64,000 bases of DNA from Brachycybe producta (Eukaryota; Arthropoda; Diplopoda; Playtdesmida; Andrognathidae). The stretch's first letter is position 1, and the number at the start of each line of letters is the position of its first letter. This document shows, in pieces, positions 31-37,681 of the stretch. A program made the position numbers and the translations under genes. Location of the stretch: the NCBI GenBank assembly GCA_036925085.1, contig JAUPFP010000026.1:3193058-3257057 (forward strand), given 5' to 3'. Under the pieces are notes generated by a model, which saw nothing but the letters and a program-made list of their open reading frames with translations, ran no database searches and was not told the DNA's origin.

Positions 31-495
31 ACGTTGATTATACTTGACAATTGGCACTTGGGCCATAAATTGAGAAACATTTGCTGGATATTGCGTAGAA
101 ATCCTAAACCCTATTGATGATATATTGCTTTCAGTTTGCAAGTATTGTTTGTTCTGTCACTTGCTTCTGGTTTCACCTCTGTTTAGCTTACAACCTTTAT
201 ACAAACATCCTCTTAATGGACGGACTCAGTGGACTTGTTGAGACTGACATTAAAAACAACACTACAGGTTTTTTTTGTAGATTTGTACTTCTCATTGCTT
301 CTTGTGTCAAGGAAAATTTCAGATTGCCTTGTCTGGTCAATTGTCAATAAGTTCGAATCAAAAACCAGTCGTTCGTGCTGTAATGTTAAACAACCCCCCC
401 CCCCCCCCCCCCCGCATACTGTATATCGTGCACCTCAGCTGGAAGAGTGGCACAACTCAAAAACCCGTTTTTTTGGGGGGGGGATCTTTGTCTAT

Positions 496-1135
496 GGTGG
501 CGCTGATCAAGCGCCAAATTGAACAAACGCCAAACTGAATAAAAGCCAAATGGAACAAACGCCAAACTGAATAAATGTCAAATGGAACAAACGCCAGACT
601 GAATAAGCGCCAAATGGAACAAACGCCAAACTGAACAAGCGCCAAACTGAATAACCGCCAAAATGTGATAAACACATGGTATGGTTAGGTTAGGTTAGGA
701 TTGGTTAGGTAAGGTTAGGATTGGTTAGGTTAGGTTTGGTTAGGTTTGGTTAGGTTAGGTTTGGTTAGGTTTGGTTAGGTTAGGTTTGGTTAGGTTAGGT
801 TTGGTTAGGTTAGGTTTGGTTAGGTTAGGTTTGGTTAGGTTAGGTTAGATTAGGTTTGGTTAGATTAGGTTTGGTTTGGTTAGGTTAGGATTGGTTAGAT
901 TAGGTTAGGTTAGCTGTAAATCTGCACAGTCTGACGTCTATAAAAGCTCACAATATTTGGACCATCACAATTTACAAAAAACCTGAATAACCGCCAAACT
1001 GAATAAACGCCAAATGGAACAAACGCCAAACTGAATAAGCGCCAAATGGAACAAACGCCAAACTGAATAAAAGCCAAAAATTTGGCGGTTATTCAGTTTG
1101 GCGTTTGTTCAATTTGGCGCTTATTCAGTCGCCCC
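496..1135. mobile_element. Foldback hAT-like element, copy 1, with TTAGG-type core
   Basis: It is flanked by an exact 8-bp TSD, TTGTCTAT (488-495 and 1136-1143). The ends are inverted (GGTGGCGCTGATCAAGCGCC left; reverse complement of the right end GGGGCGACTGAATAAGCGCC). The arms are 32-bp tandem units that alternate GCGCCAAATGGAACAAA and CGCCAAACTGAATAA. The core holds about 230 bp of TTAGG/TTTGG repeats and a unique stretch (about 914-985). An 8-bp TSD suggests the hAT superfamily. No transposase is present, so the element is non-autonomous. Confidence 0.8.
683..914 (+). repeat. Interstitial TTAGG/TTTGG telomere-like tract
   Basis: About 45 pentamers, mostly GGTTA mixed with GGTTT and a few GGATT, lie inside the foldback element. 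TTAGG is the common arthropod telomere motif. Its position between two arms of a TSD-flanked element shows that it moved with the element and is not a chromosome end. Confidence 0.9.
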
Positions 1136-1211
1136 TTGTCTATTGTAGGAGCGCCAAATAGATTATTGTGAATAGTCAAAATGGTTGTTGCGGTTTTGCT
1201 CAGCAAAGTAA

Positions 1212-2488
1212 TACCTTGTACACACATGAGTTAAATGAATTCAAATTAAATGTGTTTAGGGTGAATTATACGGAATCCAGTTAAGGACATGAACCAAATA
1301 AAAATTGACTTTATTATTAATATTTTAAATTGAAATACTAAATCAATATTTTGTCAATAGTTTATATTCTATTTAAGTATTAACTCAATATATTCAGATC
1401 ATTAACTGAATAAATTGAATTCGACATATTGTTTGTTTGCCCTTCACAGGGCTATTTTGTAGAACACGTTTATTATTTAAATGCATTTAAATTATCAGGT
1501 GACACCAATACCTAGTACACACCTGATAGTTTAAATGCATTTAAATAATAAACGTATTCTACAGAGCCCTCTGTGAAGGACAAACAATATGTCGAATTCA
1601 AGTTATTCAGTTAATAATCTGAAAATATTTAGTTAATACTTAAATAGAATATGTGAGCGTGAGGTGGCCAATTGACTTTTTCGAGCAATTCATTATGCTA
1701 TCTTTTCTGTAACTCGTCTCTTCTCTCGATCGTGCGGTGGCCGCACGGAGAAGATTCAAGCTACAGAGGTACTCGGATGGTGATGGATTGTAATCATCCT
1801 TCTGCGTAGCAGTGTAATCTAGCAGAAGGGTGGTGACCATCCATTTATGGCCGCCATTGTTGTCCATCTTCCTTTGTTAGGAAGATCTGCGGCTCCGTAT
1901 AGATCAGTATGTCTTCTTGCCCTATGGTGTCTCCGGCTTGTCTAGAGAAGGGTTAGTTTCAAAACAGTAGACAATGTATTTTCTTATTGTAAACACGTTT
2001 ATTCATTCTTGTCGAGAAACACGAACATTACAAGAATGAATAGTTATTAATCAAACGTGCGTCCATGGGCCCATGATGTGATACGGACGTGAGAATCTAC
2101 GTAGTACAAAAGTTGAGCGAAAGAGTGGACGAAGAACAAAGAGGAACATGGTCTTTTTATAGTACCTTGGACCTGTGTACACCTACGAGGTGTAACCAGC
2201 TCCAAGTGGCCATGGTCGTGAGAGTATCAATCCGCCACTTGAATATTAGAGAGGGAGGGAGGGAGGGAGGGACAAGTATGAGTTGTTTACCCCCAGGCTA
2301 TGGTTTTGGCGGGATCACAAGTTACTGGGTGTTACAAATATATAAACTATTGACAAAATATTGATTTCGTATTTCAATTTAAAATAATAAAGTCAATTTT
2401 TATTTGGTTCATGTCCTTAACTGGATTCCGTATAATTCACCTAAACACATTTAACTTGAATTCGTTTAACTCATGTGTGTACTAGGTA
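1212..2488. mobile_element. Inverted-repeat PIF/Harbinger-like element, interrupted by an LTR
   Basis: The left arm (TACCTTGTACACACATGAG...) and right arm (1-kb inverted copy ending at GGTA) match the complete element at 57024-57617. The arms include the sequence AATTATACGGAATCCAG in both orientations. A solo LTR (1652-2336) splits it. Confidence 0.75.
1652..2336. mobile_element. Solo LTR, 685 bp
   Basis: It starts TGTGAGCG and ends GTGTTACA (TG...CA) with a 4-bp TSD AATA (1648-1651 and 2337-2340). The related element at 57.4 kb has the same site uninterrupted (ACTTAAATATAATATATAAA), which confirms the insertion. No internal retroelement genes remain. Orientation is not determined. Confidence 0.75.
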
Positions 2489-5060
2489 GGCATATAAGTC
2501 ATGAATCTTCTCAACTCATTTTTCCCAAAAAAGTGTTTTTTTTAGTTCCCGTTGTTTTGTTGATCAACCTGTTGATGAGCAGACTGCGTGACCAAACTAT
2601 AAGGAAATTTCCAATATTTATTTTTATAGCTAAGTTAATAAAACAACACGTGTTAGGAGGTGATTTTATTGTGCTAATTGAGAGGCTATTATTTACTTTT
2701 TTGGGGGGGGGGACAAGTTGACATCAGATGGTTCTGAAAGTTTATCACGTCTAACTTTAGGGCAACTTATTAGTAACTAGTTTTTTGGGGGGTTGAAATT
2801 AATGATTAATTACTATTGAGATGATTAGTTGATGTGGTGTTGTTGTTGTTGTTGTTTTTGTTGTAGAAGGCAACATGTATTTTAAGAATAATTATTACAA
2901 ATTTCATATATTTCTAATATTATATTATACAGACTTAATAGTTGTATGAACAGTCGCCGCATTGAAACTTGAAGCTGGTGACATCCGAGGGAGTGACCTA
3001 TCGTTAGGTCTTTTTTGAAAATTTCAACTGATGAAAAATATAGCACACGTGGACTCCTCCTGCCCATTCACTATTATAAGCGGGAGCCATGTTTCTTCTA
3101 TTTTTCGCCAGTTGAAATATTCAAAAACTTGGCATTTTTCATCCCTGTGGGAGAAAACAAGGCATAAAATACGGATTTTTCTGTTTACCACTGCTTGTTT
3201 AAGGTTTTTTGTATTTTCATTTACTTTGTTACGGTAATGTTTAAGGGAGGGCGAGGAAATCATAACTAGGAATAAACTTTTTTTTGGTCTACTGCTGTAG
3301 CCTCCTTGTTCAACCCTTTGCATCTTGTTGTATGACTGCAGTGCTGCGTCTGGTGCTGTAATCCAAATAATTTGTTGAATCTTTATTCAGTGGTGGCCAC
3401 CCATTTTTTATAACCAGCACACGGAGGCTAGATTTTAGAGTAGAGGGTATTACACCAGGATGCTTTGTTGCAATACAGTGTTGCAGGTCTGAATCGTGTC
3501 AGCTCAGATTCATGTTTCTTGACTCCCGTCGAAATGGGAAACGTTTAAACAATGTTGCAAGACATTTCATAGTGTGGACGCTTTTTGAGACTCAAAGAGC
3601 TCAGTTTGTTATTAATTATTAAGAATAGGGTTTAAAATTACTGTTAAACTACTTGAGGATCTTCTGTGTAAATACACTACTAAATTGTGGTTTGGGGGAT
3701 TTCGAACTGCTGCCCCCATCTCCTAATTTGAGGGTGAACTGAATGTGTTCCTGGCTGAGAAAAGCTTGTGTTTCCAAGTGCCCACCACCGTTTCTGTTTT
3801 ACTGGCTCCTCTTGATCAGTGACAGTGTAAGCACATGTGGAAAGGGCGACTTCCGCAGGTGATAATGACATGGTGAAAGCCAGAAGGATGGAGAGAAGCT
3901 TGGGTATAGGTGTGGTGAACACGGAACAGTGTTGCGGGTCTGAATCGCATCAGTTGCGATTCTGCCCCGCGACATTGTATCGCAACAAAGAATCCTAGTG
4001 TGTACTATAGACTTAGGAGGTTTCTACATGAGACTAATTTTGCACACATATGAAAGGTTCACCTTACAAGCTATTTGCAGATTAAGCGCTCTAATTTCAG
4101 CTGATCATTCAAAGTCAATGAATAAAATTTTTTCATTAGAGAGAAGCTACCTATAGCTTTGCAAAAATGTGTTAAGAACATTCTTACCTTTTGACATTTT
4201 GAGTATTCTTGAATGTTTTTATATTAAGTGTATATGTAATGCGTGTTTATTTCCTATTTCGATTTTTTGGTAGTTTTCTTAGTATATTCTTAGATTAGTT
4301 CAAAGGGAGAATTGAGTGAGTGGTGGTGGCGATTCGAATAAAAGCCTCGAAGGTGGATGACTGACATGTGTTGTTGAGGCTCTCAATAGGAATAGATTTG
4401 TTAAGGTTTTTAGGTAACATATTTGAAATATGCATCTCCTTTTCCACCCTCTCATCACCACCACCATACCCCCCGAAATTTCTTTTGTAATAGGTAACAA
4501 AAAATTGATTGAGGAAAGCAGGAAATAATCTAAAGAAGTGGGGGTGTTAAGTTTATAGAAGTTTTTGACCTGTTGGCTCCTCCTACACAATCAGTTTGTT
4601 TAGATGTGTGTACTGTATTGTCTGACTTTGATAACTTGACAGATCTTTTTTTTTTGTACAATACTAAAAACAGAAAGTCAAAAAATTAGAATTTTTGAAT
4701 GTCATTGCCACTAGTGATTTCTTAAATAATGGTGTTTAAACAGTGTGGGCAAATATACTTCTCTCCAGAGGTGGGGGCAGCTACAGTAGATTTTGCTGAG
4801 AATTTCTATAGAAAATAGTTACAGGTAATATGGCTGACAAGAGTCCTCCTCAGGTAGTAGTAATGTTGGTGGACATGAAATACTATTTTCAATTCAGTAG
4901 ACCTGGCAAATCAGCTCAAGAGCCATGTGTCAGGGGGTGGGTAATATATTCCAATCATAATTAATTGTCACTTAGACAAGGTTTAGACATCATTATTGTC
5001 AAATTGAATTCGTACTAAAACGGAACTTATGTGCTGGAAGATAAACCACCACGCATCAAT
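2489..5060. other. Intergenic, no gene seen
   Basis: AT-rich sequence with short G runs. Small open frames occur on both strands over the same bases (for example 3024-3323) and lack family features. At 4900-5060 lies part of a repeat also found at 15.1-15.4, 16.48-16.68, 21.1-21.4 and 38.6-38.9 kb. Confidence 0.5.
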
Positions 5061-5070
5061 CAGTTCTAGC

Positions 5071-5804
5071 CAGGGTTTTCATTACCGGTTTTATCGTTAC
5101 CGGTATTACCGGTAAACCGGTATTACCGGTAAACCGGTATTACCGGTAAACCGGTATTACCGGTATTACCGGTCTTTAGTTACATCGTTATTACCGGTAA
5201 ATTAACCTTTCATTACCGGTTTTTCGGCACAAAAAAAGTTGTATTAATTTGGATAAAAGAATTGACCAATATTTAAGAATCACTGATTTTAAAATTAAAA
5301 TTTCACATGATAATTATGTGTAGAAACCAAGAATATTTTCAAAGACTGAAGTCAAAAAAATGGTATCCGTATGCACTTGTAACTCGTTTACGAAAGTCGC
5401 CGTAAGGTCCTAAAGTAAATGTTCGTACAGTTAAAATGATTTCCGTGCATTATACATACAGCCCCGTTTTCACGATGATAGTTGTCACGATAGTTGCTGT
5501 CATGACAGCAACAACTATCGCGAGAACTATCATCGTGAAAACCACATGATAGTCACTATCGCACTGTCGCGATAGCACTATCACACTATCTCGTTTGACT
5601 AGATATAGTTGATAGTACTGTCGCGATAGTATTAGTTGTTGTGTGACCGCTTTTAGGGAAATATCCACTTTGTAGGGAAATTTCGCTTCTGGAGGGAGGG
5701 AGGGAGAGAGAGAGAGAGAGAGGCACCGAAATTTACCAGTTTCGGTAACGCTGCATTACCGAAAAACCGGTACTGCTATAAAGTGACCGGTAATGGAAAC
5801 CCTA
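5071..5804. mobile_element. hAT-like element with ACCGGT-rich ends
   Basis: The termini CAGGGTTTTCATTACCGG and (reverse complement) TAGGGTTTCCATTACCGG are flanked by AGTTCTAGC (5062-5070 and 5805-5813), i.e. an 8-bp TSD plus one ambiguous base. The host repeat at 16.59 kb shows the empty site. The left end has repeated TTACCGGTAAACCGG units. A CTATCG MITE (5459-5665) and a short GA run are nested inside. Confidence 0.8.
5459..5665. mobile_element. CTATCG inverted-repeat MITE
   Basis: It begins AGCCCCGTTTTCACGATGAT and is packed with short palindromes (TGTCATGACA, CTATCGCGATAG). The same family is at 11029-11388 and 49484-49784. It is non-coding. Confidence 0.65.
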
Positions 5805-6112
5805 AGTTCTAGCTCTTATTTCTTTAATGAGCATTGTGGGTAGCCGTGTCTACTTATACTGGGGCTTCTAATAATAATTCGAACTAAAGATGCTCTGTTT
5901 TCTGATGCTAGCAAGTGTTCCAGAAGGGCAGGGATAAATTTGCTCAGCTCTGCGGTTTACTAGCGATTCTCTCTGAAGTTCATCTAGCATGAGGGGTTAC
6001 ACTGTCAGAATACATGTGTTTAGGGTTAACAAATCTTGCAGCCCTATGCTGTAGATTTCCTAATTTCGTGTATTAGATTTACTCGAAAAGGATTCAAACT
6101 CTTTTTAACAAT

Positions 6113-6203
6113 TTGAAATATTGTAAAGAAAATGTAAAAGCGGTCTGTCATTTATTAGAGTAAAATAACAAACCACTTTTTATTTTCTTTACAATATTTC
6201 AAA
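6113..6203. repeat. Inverted repeat (hairpin)
   Basis: TTTGAAATATTGTAAAGAAAA is repeated in inverted orientation at 6186-6203, with an intervening loop of about 45 nt. It is probably a degenerate MITE. Confidence 0.55.
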
Positions 6204-6849
6204 GTCTGGTTTCAAATAGTGGTAAAGAACCTTGAAAGGTTATGGCCCAAACGCCTTGGATGAAAGCTGCCGCCATTCCTTCTAGATAACCTGAGCAACT
6301 CTAGCTGCAATAGCTGGTTAGCTAATTTTTCTTCTATACATACATGCACATTTGATAGTATAGGGTTCATACATACTATTCAACTTTCCTCATTTTTTTT
6401 CTGTTTTTATGTGTGAACAACAAGAGATACAGAAAAAGAAAATGACTTTTTTTTTCCATTTCCTATTTTCTTTTTCCTTGGTGGAATTCCTCGTGTGTGT
6501 TCCAGGCTTTAAGGTCTTGCTAATGCTCAAGGAAAAGAACTCTGAAAAAATATTCCAAAAACATACAAAATGTCACAAAATGGAACTCAGAAAATAATTT
6601 GCAGCCTAATGAAGCCATAATGAAACCGTTGAAAACAAAAGCAATTGTGTAAATCTCTATGCTACTGTCTGCACATGGTCACCCTGACCATTGCAGTGTT
6701 GCATTTCCCTAGATTCTCTATTGTATTTCAGAGTACTCAGATTTTCCACTCTGAAACGGCAGTTTTCTGAAGAAAAAAACTTCTAAAAACTACCATTTCT
6801 GAGTGTTTCATTGAGATCTAGTAAGGCTTTTACACGAAGGATAATCAGT

Positions 6850-7370
6850 AAGTTACAAAGTAGAATAAAAAGACAGTGAAAGTGTATCGAAGTGTACAAC
6901 ACCGATGTATTTTTTGACATAATCCCCCCCCCCTCCCCTTCTATATTTAGGCATTTGTCTCATCACTATTAAACCCTGGAAGCCCGCAGCTATAGAAAGA
7001 TGTGGGTTAACGCTGTAACCATTGCCGGACAAAGTCCTGTACAGCTTTCATCTTGTGCAGAGTTGCCTTCCGCGAAGAGCTTCCTCGAGGGAGCCAAACA
7101 AATGAGTCACTCTTGCACATCTTTGGCTTGCACTGGATGATATGTTCTGATCATCCACAGGTTTTTCTATTCCATCTGTAATGGAGGAACGCTATGCTTG
7201 TTGCATCCAGTTGTACACAGTTTGGCATGAAAGACATACAACTTTTTCTTGCGCCCACAGAAATTGAACCACAGTAGCCATTCTTGCACATGTTGCACTA
7301 ACGGCACACAATCACAAAACCACCTGACGATTACCTATATCGCTTGTGTTGCAAGAAAGTAGCGCCACAT
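6850..7370 (-). pseudogene. Decayed mariner-like transposase, internally deleted
   Basis: Read on the minus strand with frameshifts, MATVVQ and an N-terminal HTH-like start are followed by THLFGSLEEALRGRQ, then VQDFVRQWLQ and GGDYVKK. These resemble the C-terminal HLFGPLKEALRGRRF, FVRQWL and GDYVEK segments of mariner-type transposases. Stops and a large internal deletion make it dead. The right flank (7310-7370, AATCACAAAACCACCTG) recurs at 48335-48385, probably as element terminus. Confidence 0.55.
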
Positions 7371-7399
7371 AAGTGTTTGATGGAGCATGCTTGACACAG

Positions 7400-8290
7400 G
7401 CCAACGCTGGAAAAGTATGGAATGCTTTCAGTGCATTCCATTGATAATGACCCAAGTCACCATTGGCAAACAGACAAGTGTTCGCTACTTATAGCTGACC
7501 TGCCTCGCTCTTCCCCAGTGTGGTTCCAAAAAAAAAACAACGACACCCCCTATGTAATCAATGGTCAGGCTAAAACGACACGGAGAGATACGTGTGCAGC
7601 GGACCAAATGATTTTGAATGCTTGTGGCGATTTTTGTGACAATCAAGGATTTGAGGCGCATATCCAAACAATGCCAATCGGCCCTAAATTGGCATTGCCG
7701 CTTAGCATTGTGGAATAGGGGTGGGGACATTCAGTCGGCATTGTCGATAGGGACGGTCGGCCACCTGCTGAATCGATACCGAACGATATCGGTCTCGTCA
7801 AAGGATGCCGAGCCGCGAACTGCATCGATCGTGTGGATGAGGTACCCCTTCTGCGCGGCTTCGTGTTGAGTCGTGGTCGCAATTGAAATTTTACATTTAC
7901 TGCCCGCCTGCAGTAATGTGGACGTTGAGGTATTTTCAACAAAACCACAATCGACTTTGACGAGCAGTAATGCCGATTTAAGCCGTTTGGAATAATGTGG
8001 ATGTAACTTTAAAATCTACGCTTGGCAAGCAAGAATGGATCGTCTGCACCCAGCATTAGCGAATCTGTTTACTTAGATTTAAGAGCCTATATTATACAGC
8101 GTTTAATTAAAAATTTCTCCGAATATAGGCGCTGTGATCGTTTTTGATTTAAAAAGGGTTTTTAACGTTTTTTTTTTTCTCCCGAGTGTTGAAGCCACAT
8201 AATAATTAATAGAGAACTAATTTCACTTGCTAAGCTTATAAAAAGGAAACATCGTGAAGCCAATACATTAATGCACCTGCTGATTATTTT
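7400..8290. other. Intergenic, no gene supported
   Basis: The block at 7700-7950 is GC-richer than its surroundings and is open on both strands (7618-7869 plus, 7643-7948 minus). No recognisable protein family appears in any frame. Confidence 0.4.
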
Positions 8291-8294
8291 GTTA

Positions 8295-8693
8295 CTAGTG
8301 GGGTAGCCCGTCATAAATGACGGGAGCAAAATTCACAGGCAATTGTGCGCATGCGCGTCGTTTTTTCCTTTTTTTACTCCTTTCATTTCAATTTCAGTCA
8401 CCCCCTCCCACTTTTCTCTCTCTCTCCACCCTTCTACATTTCCCAGCCTTTTCCTCTCACCCCCTCCCACTTTTCTCTCTCTCTCCCCCTTCTACACTTT
8501 CCAAACTTTTCCCCTCACCCCCCTCACACTTTTCTCTCTCCCCCCCTTTCTACACTTTCCAAAGGAAGAGTTCAACATATAGTTGACCTTGAGAAAAAAA
8601 AAAAACGGTTCATTTATTCAAATTTATATAAATTCCGACGTGCTTCAATGGTTTTGTTACTCCACACACACACACACACACACAGACCTGGGA
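8295..8693 (-). mobile_element. Helitron-like non-autonomous element
   Basis: On the minus strand it starts TCCCAGGTCTGTG, runs through (TG)n and a purine-rich tract, and ends with hairpin CCCGTCATTTATGACGGG followed by CTAG before T. A 5' TC, 3' hairpin plus CTRR and no TSD fit Helitrons. Sister copies end at 24512, 25251, 43221, 43638 and 43990. Confidence 0.65.
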
Positions 8694-9050
8694 TATTATA
8701 TATATAATTGTTCTAAGTCGTTTTAACGAGAGTTCTTCAAATGTTTGTGGGACAGTTTTTTACTCGTATAGATTTTCCATAGAGTTAAAAAAAACGTACG
8801 ATGTTGAACGTTATTTAAAAATAGGACCATTTCAAAATTGATATAATTAAAGCGAACATTTACTGAACAATACTTTTTATTGAATTTTTCGCTTTACTGT
8901 ATTTTCATTGATTAATCGATCGCGAGACTTTGCCTTTCAAATGACCCCACGGAAAGAAGCTTCGGGGGATGTTAAATCCTGTGACATGCTCTGACCACCA
9001 AGGCCAGTGCATGTCACCAAAACTCGTGATAAAATGTTTTGAATAAAAAT

Positions 9051-9478
9051 TAGAGTTGGGACGAATCCTAAATTTTCTCGAATCCGAATCCTAAATTTTC
9101 TCGAATCCGAATCCTAAAAGGTTCTCGAATCCTTAATAAAAGAATCCTCTTATTATTCATTAAGAAAATAGAAATAAATGAAATTATATTAAATTATTAG
9201 TAATAATTTAATAAAATACAATGTGGCACTCTCGGGGTCGCCACAAGGTGGTGATATTGGTGATCCGGGTTGCAACAATCGCCGGTTTTTTGTTTTGTTA
9301 GTGAACGCATCCGTTGGACGTCAATGGAGTTCAACCTAATTTTACCAAAGTTTTTAAGTTTTTTTTTTAGTTTAGGATTCGAAAAACGAAAAAATTGCGA
9401 AGATTCGAGTTTTCGAATCTCGAATATTTTTCAAGATTCGCAGGATTAGAGGATTCGAAGATTCGAATGGCCCATCTC
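9051..9478. mobile_element. GAATCC-family hAT-like MITE
   Basis: The termini are TAGAGTTGGGACGAATCC and (reverse complement) TAGAGATGGGCCATTCGAATC. The flanks give an imperfect 8-bp TSD. The family core includes GTGATATTGGTGATCCGGG. Related copies lie at 16081, 20194, 26493, 49043, 59303 and 61669. Confidence 0.7.
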
Positions 9479-9894
9479 TAGTATAAATAAACACAAAAGA
9501 CGATTTTTTTTTGTAAGCGGAAGTTTTGAATCGTCATGCAGTCAGTGAGCAACATTGAATTTTTCGTAAATGAAAGCGAAAAGTTGTATTGTACAATTGC
9601 TGCATTATTGCCTCGTTGATTTTTATTTCAAGAAATTTAATAAAAATATAACCTCTTACTCGAGCATGTCTTTAGTATGATTTTCACACAATGACAATCG
9701 GTACTACTTCTATTATTGTCAAGAACAACAAACTGGCCTTTCGAATCAAGAAGGAAGCCATCCAATTATTTTTTAAAGCTTATTTGTTTTGTTGTATTAA
9801 TTTTCTTCAAATGTCCTGGATGATGTTTTTGTGCTGTGGTTATAGTTCGATGGCCTTCTTTTGGACACTAAAAGCAATGGAGACCATTAATGTT

Positions 9895-9898
<4 letters not shown>

Positions 9899-9960
<62 letters not shown>
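9899..9960 (+). repeat. (TC)n microsatellite
   Basis: About 30 TC dinucleotides with one interruption. The open frame across it (9691-10020) is just the run read as SLSL. Confidence 0.95.
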
Positions 9961-9961
<1 letters not shown>

Positions 9962-10660
9962 TGTGTTTGCTATATAACAGGTGTAAATGCAATTATAGAT
10001 TGTTGGAAAACAGGAACTGATTAGATTTATTTTTATATTTTAATAAAAAAAAAATAAAGCTTGCCATTGTAAGAACTGCTGTGTTTGTGCTTTTGTTATT
10101 GTTGGTGATGCAGTTTCCGTTCGCTCTGATCGTTCCAGGTTGGTGGGTCTTTTGAAAAACTATGTTCAGGCCAGTGACATCAACTGATTGGCACCTGAAA
10201 AAGTCGGTGGGGATTTTTTTTTTTACGCTGAATATGTGTGTGTGTGTTTTCGGGGATGTTTCTTTCACTGTTGTGGGTGTTGTGTTTCTCTCTTCCTCTG
10301 TGTTTGTTTGTGTGTTTTTTTCTCTTCTCATTCCAGTTTTTTGTGTGTACTTGTGTGACAAGCCAGAAAAAAAAGCAACTTCCGCATGCTTTACCTTGAT
10401 GACTAATTAAATTTCATTAAGATATGAAGCATTTACCTTAATTAACAGAGTCGATTAAGTCAACAACCACATAATAATAATAATAATAATAAAAGTATCA
10501 CTAAAACGAATAATGATTTCTTTATCTTTTTTAAGTGTAATAAAGGGCAAGAAGAAGCTTAATGAATAATTACTAATCACAGTGACTGATGATTACAGTT
10601 GCCGCTTATGTTTTAATACGTTTGATTTTTGATTTTTAAATTTTTTTATTGTTTTCTTAG
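9961..10660. other. No gene seen upstream of the first TOX exon
   Basis: AT/GT-rich sequence with short microsatellites (TG at 10236, AAT at 10472). The TOX start exon was sought here and not recognised. Confidence 0.4.
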
Positions 10661-10729
10661 GATCTTGACGTGGGTCGGTCAATTGTAATGCAGCATCAGG
10701 TTCCAGGTGCTTACATGAATCCCGAACAG
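10661..10729 (+). CDS. Tox: TOX coding exon 1 of those visible
   Basis: This exon has 69 nt (23 codons, phase 0 at both ends). It lies between acceptor tttcttag and donor gtatgt. The peptide begins [10 protein letters not shown] and ends NPEQ. It joins the next exon in frame. It contains Met codons, but an AG acceptor precedes it directly, so it is probably not the start exon. It is assigned by position and splice phase, because the short peptide is weakly conserved. Confidence 0.72.
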
Positions 10730-13700
10730 GTATGTTTTATTTTCACGTATATTACCGTATATACAATTTGTTGAGTGTTTTTTAGGCTCGGTGGTGTCAC
10801 TGGGGTTGGTATCACTCAGTGCGGTAACTCATGGTGTCTCACTTCCCTCCCGACTTCCTCCATGGACCTCCTCCGAGTCCTCCTGTACAAGGCTAAACAG
10901 AATCCTTAGTAATATGGGTAAATGCGTAAACTTGGACCCTAAATTTACAAAAGGAAGGGACATAAGAATTAAACAATAGGTTGAAAATTTGATGGCGGAT
11001 GGGGAGTAATGTTAATTAACTAAAGCCTCGTTTTCACGAGAACTATCATCGTGAAGACCACATGATAGCCACTATTACAATAGCACTATCAGACTATCTC
11101 GTTTGACTAGATAGTTGATAGTACTGTTCGCGATAGTAATAGCTTTGTTGTGTGACCGCTTGTAGGGAAATATCCACTTTGTAGGGAAATTTAGCTTCTG
11201 GAGGGAGTGAGGCAACACTGTTGTTGACTCAATGATATCTGTGAAGTAGACGTCATACTGTCATGACAGAACTATCACGTTACTTCAAGACCTGTAGAAA
11301 GTTGCTATCGTGAGAGTGAACTGTCGCAACTTTCATGACAGCTACTTTCATGAAAAAACTATCGCCAACGTGAAAACGAGACTTTACAAAAAAAGAATTT
11401 TTTTTACATTAACTATTTCAACCATTTTAATTTGGTATGTCATGTCCTAAATAGGCTTCAAAGGAAGACGAAAGGCAGAAAATTGTCTCAAATAGACCCA
11501 TAGGCGCGCGGACTGCATGGGTGCATCTGCTCACCTTTTTGAATTTTTTTCAATTTTACTATTTTTTCTCTTGATTTTTAATATAAGCCCATCTGTATTT
11601 GCAGTAGATGCTAGGTAAATAAAAACTTAACATCAGGGCCCTGTTTCTCAAAAAAATACAAGTCTTTTAATACAAGAGAATTCTACAGAGCCCTGTAAAG
11701 GACCCACATCGCAAATTCAAAATTTGGCGTTACGAATTATTAATTCGTAATAACAAATTGTGGATTTTCGATACATGTCCTGATCCAGGGCTTCGTAGAA
11801 TTCACTTGTATTACAAGACTTGTATTTTTTTTTTAAGTAACAGTGCCCTGATGGTTCTACTTAATGTAGGCTACTCATCCGGATTCATACCGGTTGATAA
11901 TGTTTATAGCCGTAATGTGTTCGTTTTTTAAAACATTGTGTCCCGAAAAGTTTTCATTACTGTTTTTAAATGCCTTAGGTTTAGGAAACTTCTTTATAGT
12001 GTGGGAATTTGTTATACAGTAGAGTTCCGATTAATCGAGGTCCCGCGTTATCATAGCGCAAGATGAACGTAATCTTCCGCACATAGAGGTAGTAAGAAAA
12101 AAACCTTCCAAATTCGGGACCTATTACGACAGAAGACAATCGAGATTGGATGAATGAGGATGAGCAGTAGGAGTTGACCGCTGACATGATTATATATTTA
12201 AGAGGCTACATCGCAAAATTACTTCGAAAAATTTCCGCTAGCATCGTTTTTCTATTGAGCCCATAGACCCAATGTTAAAGAAAATGTTAACTTTTAAAAT
12301 ACACAGTCGCGGCAACATGTTTATTTTTCACATTTAAACTTGTCCAATTTTGGTGAAAGTGCAATCAATGTGCACCTTAAATATATGCTGATCGAGTGAT
12401 CGAATGACAAAAAATTGGTAAGTGCGGTTGGTTATTTTTTTAAAAACTGTTTCAAAATCGCAAATTTCTAACTCTTGTGTTAAACACCATTGAGTACGGC
12501 GCTCGTAAGAAAAAATTCATATATTAAAATGTTGGTAAAAAAATACCTAAAAAATAATTTAAAAAACGACAATTAAACCACAGTGTGAAGCCAACACATT
12601 GGCGCACGTGCTGATATTTTTTCTGGTTTTTTAAAATTATTTTTACGAGCATTTTAATGGATTTTTTGTTTGCTTACTCAATGGAGTTTAACATAAGTTA
12701 GAAATTCGCGATTTTTAAATATTTTTAAAAATATGACCGCACTTACCAATTTTTTGTCATTCTATAACTCGATCAGCGTATATTTAAGGCGCACTTTGAA
12801 ATCTTAATATTGGACAACTTAAAATATGAAAAATGAACATATTGCCGCCACTGTGTATATTTTAAAAATGAACATTTTTTCTTTAACATTGGGTCTATGG
12901 GCTGAATGGAAGGCTCGGAGATTTTTCGAAGTAATTTTGTGATGTAGCCTCTTAATGATAGAGAAACCAAGAGAGTGAAGACGAGGACCGTATCTGAGCT
13001 GTTTTTGGTCTACATTAGCTCGAATAATCGGGGACTCTGCTGTACTTGGATATTTTCACACGCAAACTGTTTGACATTGTTGTAATAATAATGCTATCGA
13101 TCCGTGTTTATTTGCAGACATTTCACACACCGAGCTTTGGAGATGAAGAATTCGATATTCCTCCATTAAGCCTTCCAAATTCTGGCACGTTGGCATCTGA
13201 AGGTCTTTCAGGAAACGTTGCCTACCATTCTCAGGTATTTACATTCGTTTTTTAATAACGAAACTGGTTACAGTGTATTGGATACAGGTTAGGTCCGTTA
13301 AAACGTTTTTTTGGGCAATTTTGGTCGTTGCTATTTGCAATTCAGTTCAATTGCGTACACGTAAAATCAGCTTTGAGAGCCATGTAGCTCGGGGATGACT
13401 AGTTAAAATAAAATAGTACTTAGGTGTAGTTAGTTGTAGAAATTAAAGTGGGCCCAACAAAGAACTATCTGCGGTGACTAGCGAGTCCTGTCACCCGAAG
13501 TGTCTGACGATGGGTCACAGTAGCACGATGCACCACTGCTATTTCGCCATTGTTGCAAGTTGTTTCTATGATGCTATAGCAAGTTTGTGAGCTATTGCTC
13601 CATGTTGCTCGCTGAATATTGCTGCATGTTGGATCCTGGGCTTCAGATAGATGACTTAAAATACACTACTTCTTTGCAATGTTAAAAAATACAGTAAATG

Positions 13701-16700
13701 AAACGCAGCCGAATTATCAAGTCTTTAGTGGGGTTTCTTGCAAAAAATACTGGGCCGACTTAAGTATCATGATGAAGTGATACTTAACCGGCAGTATTTT
13801 TTCTACCTCTTCTATACATGGTATTTAGGATGATGATTTTCCTGCGCACTGCAAAACGAAATGTTAGAAAATACATTAAAAATGCGATATATTCAAAATG
13901 ATTTTGTATTTTCAGTCTAATTTTACAAGTTTTGTGACGAAAGATTTCTTAGATTTCGGTACCACAAAAAAGTCGCGCATGCGTGTTTGTTGACATTTTG
14001 AGTAAAAAAAAAAAAAAAGCAGCCATTTTTTTGCCACTTCAAACGAACAATAGAATACTTTGATGAAATTAGTACATGTAATCACCAGGAAAGTATTGAA
14101 TTTGCTCAACAAAAAGCTGCAGATGTTAGGTTAAGGGTAGTTATGACTTATTTGTTTATTATGATTTTTTATTTGCTGTTTTTGCCATTTCCTCCATCCC
14201 TTGTTGCGGCCATCGTGATTTCTAGGTTTAGTAATGCACATATAGGTACTTTTTGTTTCAGGTTTTAATTGTAGTCAAAAATGTGGTTTTTCGTGTTTTA
14301 TTTTAATTTTTTTTTTCGTTTTGGCAGAATGCAAAACCATTTAACCATTTATTTAACGAAATTTAATTATGAAATAAAAAACAAAATTCATTTAAAATAT
14401 ATCGTTTTCATTTTATTTCGTGTATTTTTTGGACGAAAAATCGCAAAGCATCTATTATATTTCTTTCATGGAGATTGAAACTATGATATGCTCAGGAGAT
14501 TTATTGAAAATATTGCACGTTTTTGTGACAAAATGTTTTAGTAGTGTTGTAAATTAAAAAAACGTGTTCGTTTTTAAAAAAAAAACGCTAAAGAAAAAAT
14601 TAAAAAAAAAACGGCTGGAAAAGAAAAACGCAAAAAAGAAAGAAAATTGATTGGTTTTAAGTACACGTGTCCCCGAGATTACTGAATGATTCAGTTAGAA
14701 ATGTAAATTAAAATGTGTTCGTTTTTTTTTTTTAAAAACATTTTATTAAAAAAAAAACTGGGGGTGTGGGAGGAAGTGCAAAAAAAGCCTTTCTTAAGGT
14801 GGTGAATCCTGATTCCTGATTGTTTCAGTTCTACGATAGGGAAAAATACAAAGTTTTACATTAGCAGTGAAAAGCAAATTAATGAATATAAATTATGTCA
14901 GATTCGTGAATTAAGTCATTTAAACATTTTTTTAAAATTTTATTTTAAAAAATGTTTGACACAAAAAAAACGTTTTTTTAGAATAAAAAAAACGGTTTTT
15001 TTACAACACTAGTTTTTAGTTGATGCAAACAATAGTTATTTTAATGTGATTAAAAGAGACCATTACCCCTCCCCCAGGAATTTTTTTTTGTTGAAATGTT
15101 GTCAAGACCCAACGATTTGAAAAATTAATTTTTAAAATAAACTCATTAAAACCAATTAAAAAGGTTTTAAAATGTAGAGACTTTTCAAGTGTCATCAAAA
15201 ACAACATTATTTTCAATTTCCAAAAAAAAAAAAAAAAAGAGAACCCCTCAGCTGAGTGGCAAAGGTTGTTACCTCACATTTTCATAATTCCTTAATCAAA
15301 TACATATATTCCCCGATTCATGTTTAAACAATTCAACTCAGTACATCTTGTAATCAGCTCGAGAGCCACCTGGTAGGTGGGAGAAGTAATGTGAGGTGGC
15401 ATCGTCGGCATCTGAGTAGAGGATGGCGCTGATCAAGCGCCAAATTGAATAAGCGCCGATCTGAACTAACGTTAAACTGAATAAACGCCAAATGGAACAA
15501 ACGCCAAACTGAATAAAAGCCAAATGGAACAAACGCCAAACTGAATAAGCGCCAAATGGAACAAACGCCAAACTGAACAAGCGCCAAAATGTGATAAACA
15601 CATTGTTAGGTTAGGTTAGGTTTGGTTAGGTTAGGTTAGGTTAGGATTGGTTAGGTTAGGTTAGTTTATCATGTTTTGTTTGTAAATCTGCACAGTCTGA
15701 CGTCTATAAAAGCTCACAATATTTGGACCATCATAATTTACAAAAAACCTGAATAACCGCCAAACTGAATAAACGCCAAATGGAACAAACGCCAAACTGA
15801 ATAAGCGCCAAATGGAAGAAACGCCAAACTGAATAAGCGCCAAATGGAAGAAACGCCAAACTGAATAAGCGCCAAATGGAAGAAACGCCAAACTGAATAA
15901 AAGCCAAATAGAACAAACGCCAAATGGAAGAAACGCCAAACTGAATAAAAGCCAAAAATTTGGCGGTTATTCAGTTTGGCGTTTGTTCCATTTGGCGCTT
16001 ATTCAGTTTGGCGTTTGTTCAATTTGGCGCTTATTCAGTCGCCCCGAGTAGACGGGTAGACTTTTGGGGATGGTTTTTTAGAGGTGGGACGAATCCTAAA
16101 TTTTCTCGAATCCAAATCCTAAAAAGTTCTCGAATTCTTCATATAAGATTCCTAAATTATTCTTTAAGAAGATACAAATAAGTGAAATAATGTTAAATAT
16201 TAAATTATTAATAATAAAAAAAAAACAAGTGTGGCACTCAGGGTCGCTTCCACAAGGTGATGATATTGGTGATCCGGGTTCGACCACCGAAATGGCAACA
16301 AGCGCCGTTTTTTTGTTAGTGAACGCTGCGTCTATTGCACGTCAATGGAATTAGGATTAGGTTAGGATTCGAAAGTCGAAAAAAGCGCGAAGATTCGAGT
16401 TTTCGAATCTCGAATATTTTTCAATATTCGAGGGATTCGAGTCAATGATACGTAGTTGTAAATTTAATTTAGGCAAAGTTTAAGCATCATCGTCAGATAG
16501 AATTCGTCCTAAAACAGAACTATGTGCTGGAAGAAAATTCCGTAGTCTAAATACATTTGGAAGAAGAAAAAAATACCACGAATATGCATCAATCAGTTCT
16601 AGCTGGTATTTCTTCAATAAGCATTGGATGGCCATGTCTTCTTCTACGGGGGGGGGTTCTTGTAAGGGTGACATCTATGATATCGATGATATCATGAACC

Positions 16701-19700: not shown

Positions 19701-22700
19701 AATATTATTATTTATTATGTTATGACAATTTACTGTCATATTGCATTTCTTTAATGTCTCCCCATTTCATTTTTTTGTCATTATTGGATTCAGACGTTAT
19801 TTTTGTTTGGCTTTTAGGCCTGTTAGTGCTTACGCATTGTTTTTTCGTGACACGCAAGCGGCCATTAAAGGGCAGAATCCAAATGCAAGTTTCGGCGAGG
19901 TCTCGAAGATTGTTGCTTCCATGTGGGATAGTTTGGACGAAGACCACAAGAATGTGTACAAAAAGAGAACAGAGTCGGCAAAAAAAGATTACCTGAAGGC
20001 TTTGGCTGCCTACAGAGCGAGTCTCGTTTCAAAGGTATTGTATTTTACAGTTTGCATGTTATGTTTAAGAACTAGCAAGTTTTTTTTTTTCACCATTTAA
20101 AAATATAGCATATGCTTGTATTTAACATAGTCATCTTTAGCAGCTATAAGGATAAATAGAAAGCCTCTTAACAATTAAGATACTAATAAGTAGAGGTGGG
20201 ACGATTCCTAAATTTTCTCGAATCCGAATCCTTAAGGGTCCTCCAATTTCTCGAATTCCTATATTATTCATTAAGAAGATACAAATAAATGAAATAATAT
20301 TAAATATTAAATTATTAATAATAAAAAACAAGTGTGGCACTTATGGTCGCCACAAGGGGTGATATTGGTGATCCGGGCACCACCGAAATTGCAACAATCG
20401 CCGTTTATTCAATGGAGTTAAAATAAATTTACCAAAGTTTATAGCAGTTTTTTTAAGATTAGGATTCGAAAGATTTGAAAGACGAAAAAAGCGCAAAGAT
20501 TCCAGTTTTCGAATCTCGAATATTTTTCAAGATTCGAGGAATTGAATGTCCCATCCCTAGTTATTTTAAACATACCTAATGTGTGACACATTACAAACAC
20601 TGAACTTGACTTTAATTATTGAATCAGTCAATAGTTATAAATTTAAAACATTATTATTAATATAATTTTTAAACATTTTTTTTTTTCCAAAGGGCTGTGA
20701 AACTTCCGATCTGTCATATGGAAACTCGTCTCCTATCGGTATGCCGCCTTCGTTTTCAACGCACGGAAGCTCTTCTCAAATTATTATGCCGTCTTCCTAT
20801 TATAATACGTCTTCTTCAGCGATTGGTGCAACCGCTCAAGAACTTTCACCACTACAAAAGAAATCTCCACTTTTAACCTCGTTGATGGAGAACTCTGCAT
20901 CTTCTACGTCGAGTCCGGCTGAGCGTGAAGTGACTCATATTCAACCAATGCAGACGACGCACGTAAGATTTTTGAACAGATTATAAATGTTAACAAAAAA
21001 AAGTTATAATTATCCACGTATGCATATATGTTTATGCTTGATTTCACTGTAAGAAAACTGGTTGAATAATCTAAAGGTTTTGCCTGTTTAATAGCAGTTC
21101 TATTACCCCAAGGAATTTTTTCGTTGAGATATTCTCAAGACTTACCCAGCGATTACCAAAATGATTTTTAAAATTAAAAATAAGTCAGTAAAATCATAAA
21201 AAACTTAATTAACTTAAAACTTAAAAATAAAGTGACTTTTCATAAGTCACCAAACGACGCCATTTTAAATTTCTAAAAACCGAAGCCGGCCCTTCCATTT
21301 AGTGGCAAATGTTGTCACCTGACATTTCCATAATTCATTAATCAAGTACATGTATTCTCTAGTCGTATTAAACTCAATACAACTTTCCAATCAACTCAAG
21401 AGCCACGTGACAGGTTGTGATTTATTAAAATTATTTTAGGTATTTTTTACGAGCATTTTAATGGATGTTTTTTTTTTCTTATTTGGGCGTACTCAATGGA
21501 GTTTAACATAAGAGTTAGAAATTCGCGATTTTGAAATAGTTTTTTTAAAAATAGAAAAACACTTCTCAATTTTTTGTCATTCTATCACTCGATCAGCATA
21601 TATTTAAGGTGCACATTGCACTTTGAACCATCAAAATTGGACAACTTTAAATATGAAAAAAAACATATTGCGGCAACTGTGTATTTTAAAAATTAACATT
21701 TTTTCTTCAACATTGGGTCTATGGGCCGAATAGATAAAACGGTGCTAGTGCTCTTTGCGGAGATTTTTCGAAGTAATTTAGTGATGTTAGCCTCTTAATT
21801 AAAACCTTTCAGTGTACTCATCAACTTAGTATATGATTGAAAGCGAAATTCGAAATTATGTTAAAAGTAGATCGTAGCTGAAACCAGTCAATAATATATA
21901 TCCATATTATTATAACCTTGACAAGATGTATTTCACCTTACAGTCTGTTAAAAATGTATTGAACCTAAAAAAAATTTGTTTTTATAGATTTTGAGCGGTG
22001 CGTCATCACTTATGCAAACTTCAAATGCACCTCAACAGCAGCAACTTGTATTAGCTGTGGCAAATAATCAATTCCACACACCAGCAACTGGAAAACCACG
22101 TCAGATGTCTCAAATGCAATTTAACCTTCAGCAGTCTCAACCTGAAGCCCCATCACACACTTATACCACGTTGATGGCACCTTCAAACTCTGTACAAACT
22201 GGTACTCAAGAAATGGCTAGTGGTCAGCAGCATGCCATGTCAATGGAGCAGCATGGAACGTGTCTTCGAAATGGATGTCCCAATCCGGCCATTGAGAGTC
22301 CAGAGTGGGACAATGAATACTGCAGTAATGACTGCGTGGTGAGTCATTGCAGGTGGGTGGTGGTATTAAGATTGTTAGCGATTGTTATGCAATTTAAACC
22401 TTTGTGGACGTTGTCTTCGAAAGTTGTTCGGTGTGGATGTCAGGTCAGACATCAGTTTAGAAGTCTAGTTAAATAAATAGAAAAAATTAAAAGCATTTTA
22501 GAAACTGCAGTAAGTAGTAACTGAATGGGGGTATATACTGTATATATGTGGTAGAAATCTTTGCAGCCCAGATTAATCTGCTGTCACAGCAGTATATTCT
22601 AGAGCATGCTGCGGCAGCAATCTCCTCCGACTATCCTGCAGCCAGTCTCTTTCCTATTTTAATAAGGAAGTGTTAGAATGAAAGGAAAGAAAGTTGGGAG

Positions 22701-34220: not shown

Positions 34221-34565
34221 TTGTAAAGTATATCGTGCGAACAATGTAATTCATAAATGATGCAATTTCTTTTAAATGGCCCAAACGCACGTCAGAATAA
34301 TATAAATTTAATACTATATATTTCTAATTACAGTGTATTTAATACTATCAGCTTAGGGGCACGCATTCAATTATTCTTTGTGCAACAGTTTCATCTGACA
34401 GTGGCTAAACCGTGCTCACATATATGCAACTAAACCATCACACGATGAGCTGTAAGCACACAGGCAACTAATTGCTCTGTTTAAAACATGGATTTCTAAG
34501 AGTTATAAGCTGTGTTGTCTGCTTTTGAGCTGAGAGGAAGGATTAAAACGAGAGTAATTACGAAG

Positions 34566-35072
34566 GGGTCAGGATAAAAAGATGAACGAATGAACGGGAT
34601 GAACATTGGGGTAACTCTAAAACCCGACACAGAATGCATATAGAATAAGATGAACACTATATCATGGATGAACACACATTTTAAAGGGTTGAACAGAGAA
34701 ATAAAAGGATGAACATGGTTTTAAGGGGGATGAACATGGTTTTAGTTTAGGTTGGGTTAGGTTAGGTAACCGAACCTAACCTAACCGCATAAAACCATGT
34801 TCATCCCTTTAAAGTATGTTCATCCTTTTATTTCTCTCTGTTCATTCGTTTAAAATGTGTGTTCATTAATTAAAATATACAATGTAGTGTTCATCTAATT
34901 CTATATGCATTCTGTGTTGGGTTTTAGAGTTACCCCAATGTTCATCCCTTTATTTCTCTCTGTTCATCCCTTTAAAATGTGTGTTCATCTAATTCTAAAT
35001 GCATTCTGTGTCGGGTTTTAGAGTTGCCCCAATGTTCATCCCGTTCATTCGTTCATCTTTTTATCCTGGCCC
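34566..35072. mobile_element. Foldback hAT-like MITE with GGTTAGG core
   Basis: An exact 8-bp TSD TTACGAAG (34558-34565, 35073-35080). The arms are built from GATGAACA-type units and AACTCTAAAACCCGACACAG in both orientations. The centre holds GGTTAGGTTAGG followed by its inverse CCTAACCTAACC (about 34748-34786). A related copy is at 63205-63566. Confidence 0.78.
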
Positions 35073-36200
35073 TTACGAAGCGATATTTGGTATAACCTTA
35101 ATCACGGCACAACGTTTCGTGAAAGGGCAGTTCCATAATCTGTATAAATATTTACGAGCCCAATACTTTGCTGATCCCGGGGACATACTGGACTGGTGCG
35201 GGTGGCAAGGCGGCAAATGCCACCTGTGCCAGTCTTTACAGGCGCCGGTGCGTCAAACATGTACCACACTGTCGAATGGTGCACGTAGTATGTGTTTAGA
35301 TACGTATTTCAAAAAGTATAACCACCTACTTTTTTGTAATTTAAGCTAATTGTTAACAGTACGTTAAAATATACAATTCTAACTATACTGTATTACTTGA
35401 AAATTTAAAAGTAACATGGATAAACAACCCAACAGGAGCCTAACAAAATTGTGAAGGCGTCGGGATGCCGGTTCTTGAAACTGCGTCGAGGCATCCAAAA
35501 AAAAAACCTCTCGAAACTAGAAGGCCGACCATTGGGAGCCTCACAAACAGCTAAGAAGCCTCCCTAAGCATATAGAAATCGTGAAGCCCTCGGGGGAAAC
35601 TTCTCAAAATTGGATGGATGGATGGACTTCGAGAGCCTCTTTCGTAACTGTGAAATATAAATTTACGTTTACCAAAATTTAAAAACTACTTCGAATTTCA
35701 TACGTGTTGACATGTATGGTGCTATATTGAAAAAAAAAAATGTTGCTGAATTTTGTTTTTTGGCTCGCTTTGCTAGCAACTAAAAAATACATAATAGAAG
35801 GGAGACGAAGTCCCTATATGGCGGATATTTTGCCGACCTAGAATTTTGTAGCCAGTATACGCACGTCCCTGGCTGATCGAACTGTTTGGTTCCATATGTG
35901 ATCTCGGATGACACAAACCAGTTGCGTAATTGATGCGTTTGTGTCAAAATACGAGCTTTTTTAGTTGACGAAATGTATAGTTGAATATCATTTGCAATTG
36001 TGCGTGCTGTCATTTGAACCCTTATAGTAGTGAGTGACTCACGCAACCAAACCAATTGCCGCAACTGGTGATGATTGCATGTCAGCGCCTATAGCCTTAA
36101 ATACACTCTCATTATTTGATTATTTATTGATGTTTTTGTTTTTTGTTGCAGATTGGCCATGATTTATAAATTATAAGCTGAAAATGTCAGCTGTTATTAG

Positions 36201-36524: not shown

Positions 36525-36619
36525 GTTATTAGTAATTAACGAGCATATTAGAAACTTTTAACTATAAAAAAGAAGGACAAGTCGATGAAACTGACATTAC
36601 AATTTGAACAAAACCAACG

Positions 36620-37681
36620 ATGGATGTTGAGTGGTCCACGATTCATCCGGTAAAATCGGTAAAAGCAAACAATAACAATAATTCGGACGTAGATTTGTCA
36701 TTGGGAAGAGATGAATTTGGCGTTTGTTCCTTTATGAAGCGAAGACAATCTCTTCAATGTTCGATACACGACGAGGTTTACTTGGCTCTTGGACGTTTCG
36801 GACGATTGTTACGATTTGCCGGTTTGTTACCCATCGTAGAAGGTTACGACGACCAAACCACAAACAAAAGTATCGTAGACGGATTGAGGTATTCTTGCGT
36901 GTCGTTATGGGCCATTTACAGTTTCGTTCCTTTTTTGGCCATTGGTTGTCTCTTTTATTTCGGCCTCTGTCGTTACGCTTTTACCATTGGTAACTCTTCG
37001 GAAAAAATTCTCATGTCGTGTTTTCTCTTCTTTTACTGCCTTACCGCATTTGCGAATTGGTGCAATTGCATATGCATTCCTTCGCAATTGATTTTGTTTT
37101 TCCGTCGATCGAAACTGATCGATTCTTTTTTGGGAATTCATTTCGATTGCGAATTGCGATCTTACGGCAATTTCTTGTTCAACGTTTTTTCGGCCACTTT
37201 TCTGGTTATTCTTCTTGGAATCATTCTGTTTGCGTTGGCGGCCCTCTTTTTTCCAATCGCCGATCTCACCGTATTTGTTGTCGTCTTGTGTTTTTTCACT
37301 TATACTTTCGCTTGTCATTTGCTTCCCGAGGCTTTTTTCACCTATCTTTGCGTATCTATTAATATTCGGTTACGTCATTCGTCTCACCTACTGACAACTT
37401 CATTGAATGACGAAAATTGCGATATTTTGTATACCGTCGAAAATCTGCGTATCGCTTACCAGTTGTTAATTGACAGTATTGAACACATCAACTACATGCT
37501 CGGACCGATTTTGGTGTTTTTTTGCATTTTTAACATATATTCACTTTGCCTTTGCATGTATTTTTTTCTTCAGCAATCAGTTTCTGTTTTAGGAATAAGT
37601 CCTTTCAGAGAAATACTCCTTATCATCAGCATTTTGCGAATTGTCCCAGGATGTTTGTTATCGAGCACAATACAGGAAAAG
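36620..37681 (+). CDS. Gustatory receptor exon 1
   Basis: It has 354 codons from ATG to donor AAG|gtatgt and encodes the N-terminus and six membrane segments. Reading past the donor gives 13 unrelated codons before a stop, so splicing is expected. The opposite-strand frame at 36905-37318 is a shadow. Confidence 0.92.

Follow-up and report, generated by a model that had tools for sequence, protein, structure and literature searches.

A Foldback Transposon Family Probably Carries Telomere-Type TTAGG Tracts to Internal Sites in the Genome of the Millipede Brachycybe producta

Telomere repeats found inside chromosomes are often taken, from sequence and probe hybridisation, as scars of chromosome fusions or as marks of repair. 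Short interstitial telomeric sequences that were inserted at breaks have been described (PMC7215372; PMC8537989), and carriage of telomeric repeats to internal sites by transposable elements has been proposed as well (PMC9693754, which credits Azzalin 2001, Nergadze 2004 and Bolzan 2017). In this study, we analysed a stretch of 64,000 nucleotides (the window) from contig JAUPFP010000026.1 of the millipede Brachycybe producta, in which two foldback elements, element 1 (496-1135) and element 2 (15422-16045), each hold a TTAGG-type tract. We consider it highly probable that both belong to a non-autonomous foldback DNA transposon family resembling Mutator-like elements (MULEs), which carries a TTAGG cassette and spreads it to internal sites, where the tracts then change by 5-bp units. 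The idea is that of the transposon-carriage proposal, but the present case shows it in individual copies that have target duplications and one defined anatomy, so that the existing proposal becomes directly testable. The tracts share with break-inserted sequences that they are short, internal and of telomere type; the latter are the product of repair at single loci, whereas those of the window family lie in a transposon with arms and duplications.

The closest described system in anatomy is Tm1, a Mutator/Foldback (Phantom) family of root-knot nematodes (PMC3169594). Tm1 is like the window family in its composite terminal repeats with variable numbers of short tandem units (13-15 bp in Tm1), its asymmetric terminal motifs, its copies resembling miniature inverted-repeat transposable elements beside longer ones, and its target duplications of 8-10 bp, present in 45/53 cases. 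It differs in that an element encoding a putative transposase is known for Tm1 and none for the window family, and no telomere-type tract is mentioned in the main text of the Tm1 paper ('telomer' occurs 0 times). Tetris of Drosophila virilis (PMC4079207) is likewise a foldback with internal tandem repeats, 8-9 bp duplications and no encoding copy found, but its repeats are TIR-220 units that founded a satellite, and only three structurally complete copies are given. None of the matches listed in our literature search describes TTAGG tracts inside foldback or MULE elements. Long, internally repetitive inverted arms such as those of the window family are also found in FB/NOF and Galileo of Drosophila, the latter a member of the P superfamily, and in TU of sea urchin; we know of no telomere repeats in any of these three.

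An earlier note on this DNA had described the two elements as sharing ends, arms of 32-bp units and an inner stretch, and as being flanked by 8-bp duplications. Our analysis agrees on each of these points (Table 1): the duplication of element 1, TTGTCTAT, is exact, and that of element 2 is the pair GAGTAGAG/GAGTAGAC. Both elements follow the same order, beginning with a left end G(G/A)TGGCGCTGATCAAGCGCC, forward 16/32-bp units, the short hairpin ATGTGATAAACACAT (present with at most two changes in most copies) and the TTAGG-type tract, and continuing with the unique stretch that contains AATCTGCACAGTCTGACGTC and TATAAAAG, more forward units, a hairpin axis (at ~1079 in element 1 and ~15957 in element 2), inverted units and a right end ...TTATTCAGTCGCCCC. 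The terminal motifs of the family are GGTGGCGCTGATC on the left and GTCGCCCC on the right. Inverted arms built of short tandem units, the mark of a foldback, are thus present; across the axis, 49 nt of element 1 pair at 94% and 78 nt of element 2 at 85%. The best partners of the inverted units of element 2 are forward units at a distance of 112 nt (82 nt at 95%). The tract lengths of ~230 and ~60 bp that had been reported stand, but the placement between the arms needs correction, since the tract does not lie at the centre of the palindrome. Because forward units lie on both sides of the cassette and the axis lies farther to the right, the tract sits inside the forward (left-hand) arm, and we rejected the possibility that it forms the hairpin loop of this family.

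Table 1. Positions, within the window, of the parts of elements 1 and 2 and of a copy of a second foldback family
Feature	Position	Strand
Target-site duplication TTGTCTAT, left copy, element 1	488..495	.
Element 1, left end GGTGGCGCTGATCAAGCGCC and forward arm of 16/32-bp CGCCAAACTGAATAAA units	496..662	+
Element 1, short hairpin ATGTGATAAACACAT at cassette start	663..677	+
Element 1, TTAGG/TTTGG/ATTGG tract, ~230 bp	684..913	+
Element 1, unique inner stretch with 20-mer AATCTGCACAGTCTGACGTC (919-938) and TATAAAAG	914..982	+
Element 1, forward arm units to right of cassette	983..1078	+
Element 1, inverted arm units and right end GGCGCTTATTCAGTCGCCCC	1081..1135	-
Target-site duplication TTGTCTAT, right copy, element 1	1136..1143	.
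Target-site duplication GAGTAGAG, left copy, element 2	15414..15421	.
Element 2, left end and forward arm	15422..15588	+
Element 2, short hairpin ATGTGATAAACACAT at cassette start	15589..15603	+
Element 2, TTAGG tract, ~60 bp	15604..15664	+
Element 2, unique inner stretch (20-mer 15685-15704)	15665..15748	+
Element 2, forward arm units to right of cassette	15749..15956	+
Element 2, inverted arm units and right end	15959..16045	-
Target-site duplication GAGTAGAC, right copy, element 2 (partner of GAGTAGAG)	16046..16053	.
Family-2 foldback copy: terminal GGGTCAGGATAAAAAGATGAA, arm unit near GATGAACATGGTTTTA, head-to-head TTAGG/CCTAA loop	34566..35072	.
Duplications TTACGAAG of the family-2 copy	34558-34565 and 35073-35080	
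Loop of the family-2 copy: TTAGG at 34747, 34757, 34762; CCTAA at 34775, 34780	34747..34786	.

The genome that we screened comprises 295 Mb in 442 contigs. It holds 362 exact copies of the inner 20-mer, 574 of the left end and 537 of the right end, and since the backwards control of each gave 0, chance is excluded and the counts are above it. Among the first 100 listed left ends, 53 are followed by the exact inner 20-mer within 3 kb; of the other 47, we read 23 (L069, L070 and 20 further regions, one of which has two). Eight have a changed inner stretch in the cassette (L093, L094, L101, L102, L104, L106, L110 and L111), 11 are arms-only elements of 144 to 496 bp with both ends, and the remainder are truncated or have no matching right end. 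Both ends are recognisable in 59/72 copies that bear the exact inner 20-mer, a count that excludes L071 and L072, which repeat L001 and L002.

Dispersed copies flanked by target-site duplications are what mobility of a foldback predicts, and both were found. Among 75 elements with both ends, the 8-bp duplication is exact in 48 and has one mismatch in 11; the corresponding numbers are 41 and 9 for the 64 cassette copies and 7 and 2 for the 11 arms-only copies. When left flanks were compared with the right flanks of other elements, 5,548 pairs gave 0 exact matches and 11 with at most one mismatch, and exact duplications of other lengths are rare (6 bp, 1; 7 bp, 2; 9 bp, 1; 10 bp, 0). A match that spans the uninterrupted junction without the element was found for 9/48 insertion sites tested: it is good for L011 (89% over 123 bp, within the window), L013 and L065 (92% over 89 bp), weaker for L032, L041, L045 and L053, and inside tandem repeats for L063 and L069. 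Spread by a transposon, as the earlier note had proposed, is therefore supported by hundreds of dispersed copies, by their duplications and by some empty-site homologues.

The same data bear on the reading that each tract marks an old chromosome fusion or an independent break repair at its locus. TTAGG sites without a recognised element around them do exist (L133, L135, L140, L145 and L147), but the arms, the inner stretch and the position of the tract are common to hundreds of copies, the duplications surround the whole element and not the tract alone, and the inner 20-mer is split 168 to 194 between the strands (p 0.19). A fusion would leave one head-to-head array at the old junction and break repair a tract alone at single loci; we rejected both for the window family, in line with the earlier note's view that these are not fusion scars, and regard this reading as scarcely credible.

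At least two TTAGG-type units stand in the 70 bp to the left of the inner stretch in 72/72 inner-bearing copies, and the opposite orientation occurs in 0/72. Within this fixed place the tract is 13-1,173 bp long (64 cassette copies with both ends), with 53/64 lengths sharing one phase of five. Read in fixed 5-bp steps, the tracts contain 1,392 units, of which 877 are TTAGG (63%, a lower bound, as a few tracts slip phase), 193 TTTGG and 163 ATTGG. Copy-private higher-order repeats, such as (TTAGG)3ATTGG in L104, exceed all 100 unit shuffles in 9/19 tracts of at least 95 bp, and tract length has no relation to TTAGG fraction (Spearman 0.03, p 0.82, tracts of at least 15 bp). Thirteen copies form a subfamily with a short deletion next to the tract, and the final three units are the same in 8 of them, with tracts of 30 to 380 bp; in a wider catch-all class of 15 copies, L029 being unread, the proportion is 8/15. 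These observations bear out the earlier suggestion that the tracts grew or shrank. Telomerase is expected to add pure TTAGG. Since longer tracts are no purer and private higher-order repeats occur, growth is better explained by local duplication than by telomerase, and the data fit that process; we rejected telomerase lengthening as the main one, as variant units were duplicated too. Among the copies with the changed inner stretch, L094 (G000:C1:11836827-11837727) has a second left end seemingly inside the tract start of another copy and many (TTAGG)3ATTGG repeats.

The constancy of its place raises the question of whether the tract serves a function for the element, for instance by binding transposase, telomere proteins or a promoter factor, and is kept in cassette copies for that reason. 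The absence of any tractless copy among the 72, the presence of TATAAAAG after the tract in most copies shown in full, and the recurrence of TTAGG in other families (see below) would agree with such a role. Lengths that span nearly two orders of magnitude would not; moreover, insertion can do without the tract, since arms-only copies are flanked by duplications too. We therefore think a function improbable.

Is TTAGG the telomere repeat of this genome? We read 17 contig ends (both ends of C1-C5 and the starts of C6-C12) and met pure TTAGG arrays at 2/17, the starts of C1 and C3. C1 has N for 5 kb and then (CCTAA)n from 5001 to ~11330 (read in parts), C3 begins with (CCTAA)n, and both arrays are pure in the stretches read; at the tip, N stands in 2 ends (C1, C9), the repeat in 1 (C3) and other sequence in 14. 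Because of these two arrays, we take TTAGG to be, by sequence and on the evidence of two contigs, the telomere unit of the genome. Perfect six-unit TTAGG runs number 499 on the + strand and 7,180 on the - strand, and among the ends read telomere arrays occur only at contig starts. The unit of the window-family tracts is the same as that of the C1 and C3 arrays, although the tracts are impure and the telomeric stretches pure. The link to real telomeres drawn in the earlier note stays a conjecture, even with pure arrays at two contig starts.

TTAGG-type tracts also occupy the middle of at least three further inverted-repeat families, in two of which they stand head to head as (TTAGG)n(CCTAA)m, and the ends of the four families look mutually unrelated by eye. 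Family 2, which has a copy in the window (Table 1; loop with inverted arms 34750-34767/34769-34786), is built around the loop TTTAGTTTAGG(TTAGG)nTAACCGAA(CCTAA)m, with 62 exact loop places. By eye, 9 copies with both ends include 4 with exact 8- or 9-bp duplications (the window copy, L124, L163 and L164), L144 and L162 with one mismatch, L119 with two, and L029 and L161 with none clear; the L029 copy is without TTAGG. Family 3 has ends G(G/A)ACTGGCTCACTACAGC and GTGACCCCCAACC, a tract of TTAGG/TTCGG/TTTCATTAGG and 39 exact genome places of a tract-edge 17-mer. Its 4 copies with both ends matched comprise L154, with an exact 9-bp duplication, L152 and L134, with one mismatch after a one-base slip, and L153, with none clear; a further copy, L155, has a differing right end and a head-to-head tract. 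Family 4 has arms near TATCTCAATATATTGACTTAG and the loop (TTAGG)nTAACTATA(CCTAA)m at 38 exact places, some of them clustered; its one copy with both ends, L159, shows the duplication TTGAAAACA after one extra T.

How much TTAGG lies outside such elements was approached through three kinds of run. The tract-specific 21-mer GGATTGGTTAGGTTAGGTTAG occurs at 343 genome places; 94 of 100 listed are within 1.5 kb of an exact window-family landmark, and the other six, fetched as five loci, are all family copies with inner stretch and arms. TTAGG at these same loci without the arms, which would have spoken against carriage by the element, was thus absent from the places listed; tracts lacking window-family arms do exist at other loci, in other elements. 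Five-unit runs after a non-G base occur at 14 places: 6 in the window family, 3 in family 2, 1 at the C1 telomere edge, 1 in a degenerate TTAGG stretch near the start of C50, and 3 others, of which L128 resembles family 3. Three-unit runs after a non-G base occur at 223 places, against 5 for the backwards pattern. Of the 100 such places listed, we took the first 29 and fetched 20 loci (22 places) from them, omitting the C1 telomere, five places in window-family loci and one family-2 locus (L119); families 2, 3 and 4 account for 3, 4 and 4 of these loci, and the remaining 9 are in other settings. One of the 9, L146, lies 0.9 kb from a window-family end and is without arms itself. An inverted-repeat flank score of at least 36 was reached by 8/20 sampled sites and by 100/1,500 random window positions (6.7%), a partly informative comparison in that family members are non-independent, the L147 score probably comes from a tandem repeat, and window-family and family-3 loci score low.

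These surveys bear on where the first tract came from. It could be a microsatellite born inside the element, unrelated to telomeres and resembling TTAGG by chance. Its composition, with TTTGG and ATTGG common beside 63% exact TTAGG, unlike the pure telomeric stretches, favours such a birth. On the other hand, long arrays at two contig starts of the same genome are built of TTAGG, at least four inverted-repeat families that differ in their ends contain it, and its three-unit runs far outnumber the backwards pattern; we regard a microsatellite birth as plausible, with chances somewhat short of even. Alternatively, the first tract may have come from telomerase or telomeric DNA, a break in an arm or palindrome centre having been healed with TTAGG, rejoined and then transposed. 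Rejoining of two healed ends would be expected to leave a head-to-head (TTAGG)n(CCTAA)m in mid-element, as seen in families 2 and 4 and in L155, but inverted duplication of a TTAGG-holding arm yields the same shape. L147 (G000:C3:2641270-2641770), where by eye ~15 bp of TTAGG is inserted cleanly inside an array of ~20-bp units, is a candidate break-repair interstitial telomere, and telomerase-linked insertion at breaks has been described in vertebrates (PMC7215372; PMC8537989). Since the window-family tract has one orientation and lies off the axis, and an empty ancestral arm with exact junctions was not identified, capture of telomeric DNA seems to us possible but on the doubtful side. The unique stretch next to the tract could conceivably be a copy of telomerase RNA.

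A broader version would have foldback MULE-type transposons repeatedly gaining telomere repeats near their hairpin centres, through breaks, telomerase healing and rejoining, and then seeding TTAGG elsewhere, so that interstitial repeats would be largely a transposon product. This would leave head-to-head loops (families 2 and 4 and one family-3 copy), tracts in a single orientation (the window family and the remaining copies of family 3) and arms that contain TTAGG motifs next to an open MULE gene. We speculate along these lines but consider the general form unlikely.

The Pfam MULE domain has 21 matches in the genome, 17 of them in open frames of at least 690 codons. The match in L165 falls in a 796-codon open frame (MULE 3.9e-13), and the locus also shares with family 4 the left terminal stretch (90% identity over 50 bp), the arm units and the TTAGG/CCTAA motifs; its right end lies outside the sequence retrieved. 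Family 4 (L159, L165) thus combines a MULE gene with terminal repeat, arms and loop motifs in one locus, and because of L165 at least one of the TTAGG-bearing foldbacks of this genome is a MULE that carries a coding gene. As to the window family itself, the 8-bp duplication lies within the ~8-11 bp of MULEs, and the family is likely of MULE type. A duplication of this length also fits hAT, P and Merlin elements. hAT elements have ends near CAGNG; the duplication length fits, but the ends GGTGGCG...GTCGCCCC do not. P elements, such as Galileo, are marked by a P-type transposase with a THAP domain. Merlin elements, with 8-9 bp duplications, ends starting GG and an IS1016-type transposase, would fit in duplication length and GG end. 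As a partner element we rejected L166 (G000:C2:4231950-4238250), a MULE with 3-kb arms that has none of these ends (at most 4 mismatches allowed) and no TTAGGTTAGG in the stretch read. In its own right, L166 carries the MULE gene on both arms of a 99.8% 3-kb inverted repeat with 233 bp between them and may be a giant palindromic transposon; C5 holds a pair of MULE matches spaced as in L166.

Our preferred account of the window family runs as follows. On a single occasion, one arm of a founder would have acquired a cassette consisting of a TTAGG-type tract and a short unique stretch. Acting in trans, a transposase, probably from a MULE, would cut and insert the elements, giving 8-bp target duplications, and every insertion of a cassette copy would plant a tract at a new internal site. 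Slippage, unequal exchange or gap repair would then lengthen or shorten the tract of each copy in whole 5-bp units, with variant units duplicated together with canonical ones; descent of the tract from telomeric DNA would be a further, separable step. Several observations weigh against this account. No transposase gene was found between window-family ends, and the MULE matches on C1, C2 and C5 (10/21), the contigs among those with matches for which exact positions of the ends were listed, lie ~47 kb or more from the nearest listed window-family end. At least two mismatches occur in the 8-bp duplication of a minority, 16/75, of the elements with both ends; by eye, a duplication is seen beyond one additional C in L028, L029 and L052 and a 7-bp one in L031 and L099. 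One or both recognisable ends are missing in 13/72 inner-bearing copies, 10/19 long tracts do not exceed unit shuffles, and the copies read, taken from the window and from the contigs that head the listings, are an ordered, non-random sample. Finally, L009, the first copy in L029, and L059 are without a left arm and broken off inside the TTAGG tract. These three copies look as if the tract were a point of breakage or exchange.

If the account holds, a transposon family plants internal telomere repeats copy by copy, and at least three other families carry them too. TTAGG counts are then unsafe for inferring fusions or telomere length in such genomes. Conversely, several hundred tracts of one origin would form a natural series for measuring the growth and loss of telomere-type repeats away from chromosome ends.

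Elsewhere in the window, positions 36608-37720 hold a single open frame with a weak match to the chemosensory receptor family 7tm_7 (E 7e-4, below the curated cut-off), and 19726-20097 an HMG-box exon (E 1.3e-17). Long minisatellites lie at 53548-54459 (30 bp), 42298-42494 (30 bp), 37774-38400 (16 bp) and 40261-40688 (21 bp).

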